Shown here piece after piece: positions 4,575-7,650 of a stretch of DNA of 32,527 bases; within the stretch, counting starts at the first letter, position 1; each line of letters begins with the position of its first letter. The DNA comes from Peptococcaceae bacterium (GTDB lineage Bacteria; Bacillota; Desulfitobacteriia; Desulfitobacteriales; Syntrophobotulaceae), in NCBI GenBank assembly GCA_012520405.1, contig JAAYOJ010000220.1, positions 1 through 32,527 of the forward strand. Reading direction: 5' to 3'. The notes beneath the pieces were generated by a model, which did no database searches, was not told the origin of the DNA, and was given only the letters and a program-made list of their open reading frames with translations. The position numbers were made by a program, and so were the translations under genes.

Positions 4575-4615
4575 ATACCTAAATATAAAGCTAGATGCGA
4601 GATGGGGGTGGTTTA

Positions 4616-5863
4616 ATGAGAGAGTACAATATAAGGGACATAGCTCTGGCTCCAAGCGGGCATCGTAAAATAGAGTGGGTTCGGCAGTTTATGCCTGTTT
4701 TGAATCGCTTGAATCAAGAATTTACGGACCAAAAGCCTTTTGCCGGCAAAAGGGTGGTACTGTGCCTCCATCTGGAAGCTAAAACCGCTTATTTGGCCTT
4801 AACCTTACAGGCCGGAGGAGCAAAAGTGGCGGTTGTTGCCAGTAATCCGCTTTCTACCCAGGACGATGTGGTTGCTGCTTTGGTTGAAAACGGCATTAGT
4901 GCTTACGCCTGGTATAAGGCCACGGATGAAGAATATAAAATGCATATTAACCAGGCCTTGGATTTTAAGCCGGACCTGATTATTGATGATGGCGGGGACT
5001 TGGTTTCGGCGCTTCATACTAGCCGGCGGGAACTTTTAGATAGGATCCAGGGTGGGGCTGAGGAAACCACGACAGGAATCCTTCGTCTCAAAGCTATGGC
5101 TAAGGAAGGAAAACTATGTTTCCCGATGATGGCTGTCAATGACGCCCGCAGCAAGTATCTTTTTGATAACCGTTATGGAACGGGGCAGTCGGTATGGGAT
5201 GCAATCTTAAGGACTACAAACCTAGTGGTGGCCGGTAAAACCGTTTGTATCATTGGCTATGGCTGGTGCGGCAAAGGGGTTGCTTTACGAGCCAAAGGGT
5301 TAGGAGCCAAAGTAGTGATCTGTGAAGTTGATCCTGTTAAAGCGAATGAAGCTTGGATGGACGGACATGATGTTAAAAAGCTAAAGGAAGCGGCTCCTTA
5401 TGCTGATTATTTTATTACGGTTACCGGTAATAAGAATGTGATTCACCGGGAACATATGCAATTAATGAAAAACGGAGCTATTTTAGCTAATGCCGGGCAC
5501 TTTGATGTGGAAATTTGCAAGCCGGATCTAGCTCAAATCAGTATTTCCCAAAAAACAGTTAAGCCCAATATCGAAGAATTTATCTTGCCGGACGGCAGGA
5601 AAATCTATTTATTAGCTGAAGGACGATTGGTCAATTTGGCTGCAGGGGATGGTCATCCGGCTGAAGTAATGGATATGTCTTTCGCCTTGCAAGCATTGGC
5701 CTTAGATTACCTGGCGAAAAATAAGGAAATTGAGAATGGTGTGCATAATGTGCCGCTGGAAATCGATAATAAAGTAGCGCTGATGAAGCTAAATTCCTTA
5801 GGATTGAATATCGATAGTTTGACAGATGAACAGGTACGATACTTAGCAGCCTGGCAAGAATAA
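4616..5863 (+). CDS. ahcY: S-adenosylhomocysteine hydrolase
   Basis: NAD-dependent enzyme that reversibly splits S-adenosylhomocysteine to adenosine and homocysteine, clearing the inhibitory by-product of SAM-dependent methylation. The NAD-binding segment is recognisable (IIGYGWCGKGVALRAKGLGA, then CEVDPVKANEAWMDG), as are the NGAILANAGHFDVEI strand and the C-terminal LAAGDGHPAEVMDMSFALQA. At 415 residues it is the shorter bacterial/archaeal-type form without the long insertion of some proteobacterial enzymes. The ATG at 4616 follows GGGGGTGG (4603-4610); the in-frame ATG at 4595 lies upstream of that site. No homocysteine- or methionine-cycle partner is next to it. Confidence 0.95.
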   Translation: MREYNIRDIALAPSGHRKIEWVRQFMPVLNRLNQEFTDQKPFAGKRVVLCLHLEAKTAYLALTLQAGGAKVAVVASNPLSTQDDVVAALVENGISAYAWYKATDEEYKMHINQALDFKPDLIIDDGGDLVSALHTSRRELLDRIQGGAEETTTGILRLKAMAKEGKLCFPMMAVNDARSKYLFDNRYGTGQSVWDAILRTTNLVVAGKTVCIIGYGWCGKGVALRAKGLGAKVVICEVDPVKANEAWMDGHDVKKLKEAAPYADYFITVTGNKNVIHREHMQLMKNGAILANAGHFDVEICKPDLAQISISQKTVKPNIEEFILPDGRKIYLLAEGRLVNLAAGDGHPAEVMDMSFALQALALDYLAKNKEIENGVHNVPLEIDNKVALMKLNSLGLNIDSLTDEQVRYLAAWQE

Positions 5864-6026
5864 TTAAAATTTAATTCTTCAATTTCAGCTAATTAAGTCA
5901 GAAAAAGATTGTTAAGAGGGATTGAAATTAGTTTTACTGTCTTCTTTTCAGAATGTTTGGGTATGCTGATTTTGGATAGCCTGTTCAGCTTTTGAAATTA
6001 AAGAACTATTAGAATAAAATATAGAT
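5864..6026. other. Intergenic gap between ahcY and the long RNA
   Basis: AT-rich, with no reading frame. It contains the short palindrome ATTAAAATTTAAT just after the ahcY stop, without a convincing T-run, and ends in the promoter of the long RNA. Confidence 0.4.
5992..6020 (+). promoter_or_regulatory. Promoter of the long structured RNA
   Basis: TTGAAA (5992-5997), exactly 17 bases, then TAAAAT (6015-6020). This predicts a transcript starting near 6027, about 70 bases before the GC-rich structured core. Confidence 0.65.
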
Positions 6027-6654
6027 AAAACCAATATATTAAACTATCTAATAAAAATTGGTTCTTTGAAAATAAGAAAGTTTCTTACAGGCATGGGGCG
6101 TTATTCTAGTGCACAGAACGATTGTCGGAGGGCGGGCCTAAGAATCCGCTAAGGGCACACCGATGAAGTTCCTGGTGGTGGCTCGAGGACGCCCAGTCGC
6201 GGGCTGTTGCTGGGAGTTAAGGACTTAGGGGGATCTACAATGGCATGTAGGCGCTACCCTTTGTCCGTGGAGGCCCAGGTTCGTGGCTTAATCAAGTTAC
6301 GGCTTGGGGATGAACCTGCATTAGGAAGGGACTTAGTGCAGTGTAGCCTGCCTTGAGGTGGAGAAGTTGGGAAGGCGCGAAACGGTAAATAAGTATCGGC
6401 AGGTATTTATTTATCGGCCGGAAATTCTTTTCTGCAAAAGAGGCTAGGACAATTGGGAGTGTGAAGGAAAACTTCTAGAGCGCTGTCAAAAAGGATTAAA
6501 GTGCGGACTAAGTGGCGATCAAGTTCCGAAAGTGGTGACACTTCGGGCTGGGAGTAAAGGGAAACCGCCTTTTGGGAAACCAAAAGGATCCTGGCGGGAA
6601 AACCTACTTGACCTAAGCCGTAACGTTTACTTTTTGACTTCCTAAACCTGTAGA

Positions 6655-6688
6655 AACTTTATTATTTCATTGTAAAAATAATAAAGTT
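6655..6688 (+). other. 13-bp perfect hairpin before the RNA terminator
   Basis: AACTTTATTATTT (6655-6667) pairs with AAATAATAAAGTT (6676-6688) around an 8-base loop, immediately upstream of the terminator. It could be a 3' stabilising element of the long RNA. Confidence 0.5.
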
Positions 6689-6690
6689 AT

Positions 6691-6717
6691 AAAGATCCTA
6701 AGATAAGGATCTTTTTT
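6691..6717 (+). terminator. Terminator of the long RNA
   Basis: AAAGATCCT (6691-6699) pairs perfectly with AGGATCTTT (6706-6714) around a 6-base loop, with a T-run at 6712-6717. Confidence 0.8.
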
Positions 6718-6746
6718 ATTTATCATTTTTATCTCAAATAAAACAG

Positions 6747-6783
6747 AAAAAGAAAGACCCGGTAATAACAGGGCCGAAGTCTT
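6747..6783 (-). terminator. Probable terminator of the bactofilin operon
   Basis: On the minus strand, AAGAC and CC segments (6771-6783) pair with GGGTCTT (6754-6760) in an imperfect, bulged hairpin followed by TTCTTTTT. It lies 25 bases beyond the bactofilin stop. Confidence 0.5.
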
Positions 6784-6807
6784 AAACTATTATATTATAC
6801 TATCCGG

Positions 6808-7260
6808 TCAGTTTTGTTGTTTATCGTTGTTTTTTGCAGATAAGGGAACAGTAGGCGATTTGCCGGCCGATGAAGCATTTTGCGATCCATCCGAACCATC
6901 GTAGGTACTCTTACCAATAAAACGCGCTCCCTGATCGATTATTAGTTCCTTAGTATGAATATCTCCGTATATACGGGCAGAAGAACTTAACTCCAGTAAT
7001 TCATTTACTTTGACGTTGCCGCGGACTTCACCGGCTATGCTGATATTTTGGGCTTCGATATCAGCCTTGAGTACTGCGGTGGGGCCAATGACCAGAGAAC
7101 CTGTAACATGGACTGAGCCTTCCAACTTACCGTCAATCCTTGCATTGCCGGCAGCTATAAAAGAGCCTTTGATTTCGCTTTCTTCTGCTAAATAGGTAAG
7201 ATTTGAGTTGTTAGAGCTTTTGGTTACCGGCTTAACGTCATTTTCTTTTCTTCCAAACAT
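6808..7260 (-). CDS. Bactofilin-family cytoskeletal protein
   Basis: Bactofilins polymerise without nucleotide into right-handed beta-helix filaments, often at the membrane, and position cell-wall enzymes. The core (about residues 22-118) shows the short beta-strand repeats of the family: IKGSFIAAGNARIDGKLEGS, VIGPTAVLKADIEAQNISI, VRGNVKVNELLELSSSARI and YGDIHTKELIIDQGARFIG. Disordered, polar tails flank it (MFGRKEND at the start; a Ser/Asn/Lys-rich end). The length, 150 residues, is typical. It starts 6 bases after the stop of the membrane/coiled-coil gene at 7267-7650 and is almost certainly co-transcribed with it. The usual neighbour of bactofilin in Firmicutes is an M23 peptidase. Confidence 0.9.
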   Translation of the reverse strand: MFGRKENDVKPVTKSSNNSNLTYLAEESEIKGSFIAAGNARIDGKLEGSVHVTGSLVIGPTAVLKADIEAQNISIAGEVRGNVKVNELLELSSSARIYGDIHTKELIIDQGARFIGKSTYDGSDGSQNASSAGKSPTVPLSAKNNDKQQN

Positions 7261-7266
7261 CTTTTA

Positions 7267-7650
7267 CTACTCCTTATTATTTGTTTTCTCTGATTCTGTG
7301 GAGTCTTGATTTTGCGGCTTGATTTTTAAAATATCAGCTATTTTTTTCTCCAAGGCAGCAATAGCTGACAGCTGCTTGTTAATCTCTTCAGTCTTTTCAT
7401 TAAGACGGGCAATTTCAAGATTTTTCGCTTGTATTTCCGATTCAAGCTTATCGGCATAGGCCATTTTTTGGCGATATTCATTGATGTAGTGGGCTTGGTA
7501 TCTATTATGAACAAAAAGACTGGCTAAAAAGATCACAATTATAACCGAACCGAAAATTAATATTCTTTTTAATTTATGGGAAAAATTAAATTGGCGAGGC
7601 GCTTGATTGTGTTCAGGCGGAACTATGATTATGGAATACTTGCGTTTCAA
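7267..7650 (-). CDS. Membrane-anchored coiled-coil protein resembling an M23 peptidase N-terminus
   Basis: A 127-residue protein: a basic cytoplasmic N-terminus containing IIIVPPEHN, one membrane segment (about 29-47, ILIFGSVIIVIFLASLFV), then a long extracytoplasmic coiled coil (about 55-112, Lys/Glu/Leu/Ala rich) and a polar tail. This layout matches, from memory, the N-terminal part of the M23 (LytM) endopeptidases encoded beside bactofilins in Clostridia, but no peptidase domain (HxxxD, HxH) follows: the stop is 6 bases from the bactofilin start. It may be a truncated relic or a stand-alone activator/anchor. The TTG at 7650 is 8 bases from GGGAG. A strong promoter lies at 7691-7719. Confidence 0.72.
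   Translation of the reverse strand: MKRKYSIIIVPPEHNQAPRQFNFSHKLKRILIFGSVIIVIFLASLFVHNRYQAHYINEYRQKMAYADKLESEIQAKNLEIARLNEKTEEINKQLSAIAALEKKIADILKIKPQNQDSTESEKTNNKE

Follow-up and report, generated by a model that had tools for sequence, protein, structure and literature searches.

An OLE RNA gene between ahcY and a bactofilin gene of a Peptococcaceae bacterium, and its partner gene oapA on another contig

The gap between ahcY and the bactofilin gene

The window, that is, the whole stretch of 32,527 nucleotides analysed, contained a gap at 5864–6807. Upstream of it lay ahcY, encoding adenosylhomocysteinase (4595–5863, forward strand; NCBIfam NF004005, 676.9 bits, and synteny), the upstream neighbour at what is read below as a relocated site, and downstream lay a convergent bactofilin gene (6808–7260, reverse strand; PF04519, E 4e-28). 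The next frame (7267–7650, reverse strand) encoded a 127-aa protein whose counterpart in genome G009 is longer (about 317 aa) and carries a C-terminal M23 peptidase domain, the window protein corresponding to its N-terminal part. The window frame stopped before the M23 domain, and the matching frames of G001 and G002 were equally short (128 and 124 aa); Pfam was applied in this comparison to the window and G009 proteins only.

No ORF of at least 100 aa, the listing threshold, was found on either strand of the gap. The GC content was 53.5–56% at 6100–6399 and 28–32% at 5800–6099, so that the GC-rich non-coding block named in a preliminary description of the locus was confirmed. That description had placed a large structured RNA at 6027–6717, had left the choice between OLE, which it favoured, and an undescribed class, and had called for an Rfam scan, a covariation test among homologues and a genome search for oapA.

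The Rfam scan of the whole window returned OLE (RF01071) as the sole family above its gathering score. The match covered 6077–6661 on the forward strand with 431.3 bits (E 1.3e-123; gathering score 50 bits) and extended over model positions 1–616 of 616, and the window RNA had 585 nt for the 616 model positions. The interval 6027–6717 thus contains the RNA, and the Rfam boundaries are narrower. No second match was found genome-wide, giving one OLE copy in the genome of the window (G000). The single-sequence fold had an energy of −224.3 kcal/mol (z −5.26), and 0 of 100 shuffles were as low. A structured non-coding RNA in the gap is confirmed, and its identity as OLE is supported by the full-length match together with compensatory changes in 23 homologues. 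Another large class (RNase P, tmRNA, a group I or group II intron, or an undescribed class), for which only size and structure speak, is extremely improbable, as OLE alone exceeded the gathering score, no tRNA or tmRNA was found in the window, and RNase P class B scored 11.3 bits, below its cut-off of 97. RNase P and tmRNA, already excluded in the preliminary description, and other known classes were ruled out by the full-length match and the covariation.

Few structured bacterial RNAs of unsolved biochemical function are as large as OLE, and the window RNA adds an instructively placed member to this known class. According to the available text of PMC11332333, whose authors searched GTDB as a whole, Bacillota gave 2,822 OLE hits, and these very likely include relatives of the window RNA.

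Structure and transcription signals

The survey set consisted of 41 genomes, namely that of the window and 40 relatives, in families f1 (the window's own), f2 and f3. OLE was found in 24 of the 41 (13 of f1, eight of f2 and three of f3). Alignment A1, the basis of the pair, closing-helix and loop-motif counts, comprised the window RNA and 22 full-length relatives (n=23), and the cut copy of G030 was excluded. Its mean column identity was 80%, with long invariant runs. Both sides were present in the window for 150 of the 159 model pairs, of which 138 were standard and 12 non-standard. Among the 23 homologues, 69 of the 150 pairs showed a change on both sides, and 87.8% of cells were paired. The covariation score was 0.278. 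Shuffles, which ignore kinship, gave 0.151, and none of the 500 reached the observed score; slid versions did not exceed 0.096, a comparison that favours the tested structure, as it was derived from the Rfam alignment of the window. Helix 7 (P8) was weaker (67.8% of cells paired, 0 pairs changed on both sides), as were the two innermost P7 pairs, which formed in 23.7% of cells.

Helix names (P4–P13) were assigned by order and by the published papers, not nucleotide by nucleotide; the elements below were read from the Rfam structure and all lie on the forward strand. The hairpin at 6131–6150, supported by covariation, is P4/L4 by order, with the A-rich loop given as bridge B1 in the available text of PMC12286853. 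The loop of the window (6140–6144) was AAGAA, with the central A replaced by G and the four flanking A retained; throughout f1 and f2 four A were kept around a central G, U or A, a pattern that would fit four A-A pairs. The P5/P5.1 arm (6169–6216) and the P6/P6.1 arm (6221–6266) were also supported by covariation, the former with the loop string ACGCCCAGU in 23 of 23 sequences and the latter without CCUCC in the loop survey. P7 and P8 (6274–6341) were below the Rfam consensus length in the Rfam alignment. The P9 arm (6350–6444) ended in an apical hairpin at 6383–6416 with the loop CGGCAG. Segment CACACCGAUGAAG was near the consensus and may hold the k-turn at J4a/5 for OapC.

The 3' domain (6483–6640) was closed by helix 6483–6493/6630–6640, in which 9 of 11 pairs were changed on both sides; the model has further long-range pairs at 6502–6506/6618–6622 and 6519–6524/6606–6611. 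The end-closing helix suggested earlier (6098–6104/6620–6626) was rejected, since none of its seven pairs showed a double change and two were unpaired in 20 of 23 homologues. The two GNRA tetraloop hairpins of the same description proved real and cap covarying Rfam hairpins: the P13-type hairpin (by order) at 6526–6546 with GTGA at 6535–6538, and the hairpin at 6567–6588 with GAAA at 6576–6579. The stretch near model positions 423–435 was 9–14 columns shorter in all 21 f1 and f2 rows of A1 and is therefore not a sign of fresh decay.

Compared with the RF01071 types of H. halodurans, C. acetobutylicum and C. botulinum, the window RNA shares the full-length match (1–616), the A-rich L4 with its four flanking A, the L5.1 and L6.1 loop strings and the GNRA-capped P13-type hairpin. 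It differs in its length of 585 nt, the shorter 423–435 stretch, the central G of L4, GGCA in L9.3, the lack of CCUCC in P6 and a gene position not beside oapA. With OLE variants 1 and 2 of the TANB77 and RF39 clades, as described in the available text of PMC11332333, it shares the somewhat shorter P7–P9 and an undetected OapB; it differs from them in having P7 and P8, an intact GNRA hairpin of P13 type and an OapC candidate. Variant 1 is described there as being without the OapB-binding end of P13, whereas the P13-type GNRA hairpin was present in 23 of 23 sequences here.

The L9.3 tetranucleotide of the window was GGCA (6398–6401) and not the palindrome GGCC. In the loop survey (n=23), GGCA was found in 12 of 13 f1 copies, and GGCC in all eight f2 copies, both f3 copies and one of 13 f1 copies (G016); for G031 the hairpin was missed when the segment was folded in isolation, and the copy was scored by its GGCC string. 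Four G-C pairs form the self-kissing contact described for L9.3 in the cryo-EM structure of the OLE dimer (available text of PMC12412911), and the tetranucleotide is reported to alternate between three palindromes, GGCC, GAUC and AGCU (available text of PMC12286853). The solved dimer of the latter source has a palindromic L9.3, in contrast to the window and 12 of 13 f1 copies. GGCA set against itself would retain two G-C pairs, with a G-A opposition on either side.

A promoter-like site (TTGAAA-17-TAAAAT, 5992–6020, forward strand) was found by string search, and transcription could start at 6027, 7 bases past the −10 element. All 13 OLE-bearing f1 genomes had the pattern TTGNNN-17-TA[AG]AAT no more than 130 bases upstream of OLE, a count made without a shuffle control and including four nearly identical genomes (G004, G014, G018 and G023). 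An intrinsic-terminator-like hairpin with a T run was found at 6691–6714 (forward strand; string and hairpin search), and 16 of 24 OLE neighbourhoods had a similar hairpin in the 140 bases that follow OLE, a count likewise made without a control. Both signals had been claimed before, the terminator as a clean one. The strings are there, and the promoter pattern recurs in f1; the counts in the gap (two promoter-like sites and one terminator-like site) were at chance level, with 1.8 and 1.0 in shuffles. The promoter pattern upstream and the terminator-like hairpin downstream make OLE look like a separate transcription unit. An own promoter is also described for the OLE RNA of H. halodurans (available text of PMC9723947), as proposed here for the window. 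An inverted repeat (AACCAAT/ATTGGTT) lay at 6029–6063, between the promoter-like site and the Rfam start, and similar repeats were seen in some relatives. When the leaders of the 13 f1 genomes were folded with regard to this 5' hairpin, the scores were inconsistent and only two clearly beat their shuffles (z < −3), so that no leader hairpin is claimed.

OapA and the other protein partners

The commonest immediate downstream neighbour of ole is oapA according to the available text of PMC12265935. In place of this canonical pair, which is common without being a defining trait of the RNA, the window has the bactofilin gene directly downstream, so the statement that oapA is not adjacent was correct. 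The genome search found the oapA orthologue on another contig (G000:C130:7156-7722; 194 aa), between divPAP and dxs, which rules out the absence of oapA from this genome. The query was the f3 protein encoded directly behind OLE (L003), with E 6.3e-41 and 40% identity, and the gene occupies the same operon in which OLE adjoins it in f3. The context, called unusual for OLE in the preliminary description, is unusual in its setting, and the partner gene is not missing.

OapA was found in 25 of the 41 genomes. Alignment of 24 of the 25 sequences, the short G004 frame (L082) being left out, gave 31 invariant columns. OapA of the window's genome had no Pfam or NCBIfam hit, and a PDB sequence search matched no chain. 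Its AlphaFold2 model was helical with a middling confidence (pLDDT 65). The four best structural matches of the model were CNNM transmembrane domains (Z 8.8–9.3, rmsd 3.2–3.6, 124–130 residues), at Z values below the level of about 13 under which matches can be common for helical bundles; the next was an unrelated helical chain (Z 8.3 over 77 residues), and the best CNNM match by Foldseek had E 0.65. The predicted fold is consistent with the link of OapA to CNNM proteins published in PMC11332333, as far as the available text goes. A CNNM Pfam search was of no use as an oapA finder in G000, where it returned only an MpfA-like protein; it weakly caught OapA in G003, G005, G013 and G028.

MpfA, a CNNM-CBS-CorC Mg2+ exporter, is proposed as a functional substitute for OLE in the available text of PMC11332333; it is a protein transporter, whereas OLE is an RNA. 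One CNNM protein exceeded the Pfam cut-off in the window's genome. Genomes without OLE and OapA had 1.67 CNNM proteins on average (25 in 15) and OLE-positive genomes 0.88 (21 in 24), averages that leave out the OapA-only genomes G010 and G011 (0 and 1). This surplus is in line with the published anticorrelation of MpfA; CNNM proteins coexisted with OLE in 18 of the 24 OLE-positive genomes. At least two CNNM proteins were found in seven of the 15 negatives (G006, G007, G008, G036, G037, G039 and G040, with 2–4 each) and in two of the 24 OLE-positive genomes.

A candidate for OapC in the window's genome was an 83-aa protein of the L7Ae family, encoded between rpoC and rpsL, with YbxF as its best PDB match (E 1e-13). 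The bS21 gene was present in this genome and in 36 of the 41. In the genera g5 and g11, which have neither OLE nor OapA, the count of L7Ae-family proteins fell from two to one (none was found in G015), so that OapC/YbxF was apparently lost there. The genomes of these genera with a single or no such protein were G006, G012, G015, G017, G019, G020, G022 and G024. No drop was seen in G007, G008 or the OLE-less f2 genomes, and a single protein was also found in G005 and G030, which are OLE-positive and incomplete.

OapB was confidently found in one of the 41 genomes with two single-sequence queries, namely in G028, where the gene between map and infA matched PDB 7k9b (E 8e-9); elsewhere only matches with E > 0.02 were obtained. 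With these two queries OapB was not detected in f1 and f2, and neither the G028 query (same order) nor the 7k9b segment gave a match in the window's genome, a search that might overlook a short, divergent protein. Among six genomes inspected (G000, G009, G025, G026, G028 and G031), only G028 had a gene in the map-infA interval. Weak KOW hits in G031 and G002 were rejected as OapB by eye. The published OapB-binding region is P13. In A1, all 23 sequences retained a GNRA loop on the P13-type hairpin, with four GNRA types among them, although OapB was mostly not detected in their genomes; an OapB that escaped recognition or another ligand may therefore exist.

CCUCC in P6 is described as a mimic of the anti-Shine-Dalgarno sequence for bS21 in H. 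halodurans (available text of PMC12054373). It was not found anywhere in the window RNA, and a P6 copy was present in one of 23 sequences (G028); three f2 copies had CCUCC near the 3' end instead. Genes for OapA, a YbxF-type OapC and bS21, known from the OLE RNP of H. halodurans, are thus also present in the window's genome, which differs in an undetected OapB, an oapA apart from ole and the lack of the anti-Shine-Dalgarno mimic. The contacts of the window RNA differ from those of the studied species, as OapB was not found, CCUCC is lacking and L9.3 is not palindromic.

These differences bring in a variant OLE RNP, unlike that of H. halodurans, which would work without one or more of the usual components, having no OapB, a changed kissing contact and no bS21 mimic. 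The confident OapB in only one of 41 genomes, the GGCA loop in 12 of 13 f1 copies and the P6 CCUCC in one of 23 argue for it; the OapB-type hairpin with its GNRA loop is nevertheless kept in 23 of 23, so that OapB may have gone unrecognised or another ligand may exist, and small proteins are easily missed. Such an RNP is a tentative option, somewhat short of an even chance, and refines the preferred explanation more than it opposes it.

Probable relocation of ole and its possible joint loss with oapA

In the three f3 genomes with OLE, the RNA gene lay behind ispA-divPAP, followed by oapA-dxs in two of them; in the third (G030) the contig ended within OLE. In f1 and f2, pepF and/or mrp lay upstream of OLE in 21 of 21 genomes, often with ahcY, mtnX or a DUF711-like gene between, and uvrC lay downstream in 19 of 21, the window included. 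Of the two exceptions, G005 had bactofilin-M23 and no uvrC in the stretch taken, and G013 had no downstream marker. The dxs operon was seen in 16 f1 and f2 genomes (14 of the 21 OLE-bearing); 15 had the order divPAP-oapA-dxs, the contig of G002 started inside oapA, and OLE was absent there. The distance between ole and oapA was 61–808 kb in the nine genomes with both on one contig (G003, G004, G014, G018, G021, G027, G029, G032 and G034). In a tree of 14 ribosomal proteins from 40 genomes, rooted on f3 by choice and without G024, in which no ribosomal locus was found, the branch separating f3 from f1 and f2 had a support of 100/100. These gene orders are most simply read as one old relocation of ole, in the common ancestor of f1 and f2. 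On these data alone the opposite direction is possible, though the literature gives oapA as the usual immediate neighbour downstream of ole.

Among AhcY loci of named genomes (best 80 of 378), OLE lay within 3 kb of ahcY in six of 80, one of them a Gracilibacter record and the other five Peptococcaceae; through the 3-kb flanks and the restriction to the best 80 of 378, loci with OLE farther off or with ahcY moved were missed. In the parts of the OLE literature available, no paper naming Desulfitobacterium and no statement on a relocation of ole was found. Breaker et al. reportedly surveyed the neighbours of ole in 730 species in 2023, a survey that may tabulate it.

A decaying OLE pseudogene, left behind after separation from oapA, would account for a window OLE without an adjacent oapA, for the 12 non-standard pairs among 150 and for P7–P9 and a 423–435 stretch below consensus length. 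Its pairs are however compensated across 23 homologues, the mean column identity is 80% with long invariant runs, the promoter pattern recurs in 13 of 13 f1 genomes and oapA is present elsewhere in the genome, and decay is very unlikely. We prefer a functional OLE gene of an anaerobe close to Peptococcaceae MAGs, probably with its own promoter and terminator, that would work with OapA supplied in trans and was relocated in the ancestor of f1 and f2 (probability about 0.93).

OLE and OapA were concordant in 38 of the 41 genomes (23 with both, 15 with neither, one with OLE only and two with OapA only; Fisher p 3.2e-8, kinship ignored). The three discordances fall at contig ends or in an unassembled region: the contig of G030 (OLE only) ended before the expected place of oapA, that of G010 (OapA only) ended just after mtnX, the expected place of OLE, and no ahcY was found in G011 (OapA only). 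Over all 40 tree genomes, eight changes of OLE and seven of OapA were counted, and five independent pairs gave averages of 3.5 changing the same way, 0 the opposite way and 1.5 undecided. When G010, G011 and G030 were left out, having been dropped after their disagreement was seen, the patterns were identical in the remaining 37, with six changes each and four of four independent pairs changing the same way on well-supported branches. The sign test gave p 0.125 in both counts; for this small number of pairs, 0.05 is out of its reach.

Empty sites were found on both sides of the pair. In G007 and G008, ahcY(-mtnX) lay about 105 bases from the bactofilin gene; the OLE-site survey was clean in these two, the f2 genomes without OLE fell outside it and the remaining loci were unclear. 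In operons lacking oapA, divPAP lay 25–90 bases from dxs in G007, G008, G035, G036, G037, G039 and G040, and 139–247 bases in G012, G017 and G020; in a survey without G024, divPAP was not matched beside dxs in G006, G015, G019 and G022. OLE and OapA tend to stay or go together, and new here is that the joint pattern holds with the genes far apart. With 61–808 kb between the genes in nine genomes, a single deletion could hardly account for joint loss.

In the bacterium Halalkalibacterium halodurans, others have shown a role of OLE in stress by Mg2+, alcohol, cold and a poor carbon source. Under the preferred explanation, the common ancestor of f1 and f2 would have moved ole out of the divPAP-oapA-dxs operon and into the interval before uvrC, so that the RNA and its partner gene are no longer neighbours. 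The ole gene would probably form a transcription unit by itself, bounded by its own promoter and terminator. By analogy with studied systems, the RNA may dimerise through its loops, bind OapA made in trans and be held at the membrane, and may aid the cell through the same stresses as in H. halodurans.

A more specific reading, put at even odds, is that a single, ancient event took ole out of the oapA operon, that the unlinked genes were since lost together about six times as an obligate pair, and that they form an RNP without a detectable OapB in which the L9.3 contact of f1 was rebuilt (two G-C pairs with G-A oppositions in place of four G-C pairs). Joint loss of genes so far apart would then mean that their co-occurrence is no by-product of adjacency, and the L9.3 contact of f1 would offer the dimer model a natural separation-of-function case.

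The f1 and f2 genomes separate linkage from function. Unlinked joint loss would lend weight to the idea that neither OLE RNA nor OapA works without the other, and the natural variants of this clade, with no detected OapB, GGCA in L9.3 and no bS21 mimic, make the published claims on protein partners and dimerisation directly testable.
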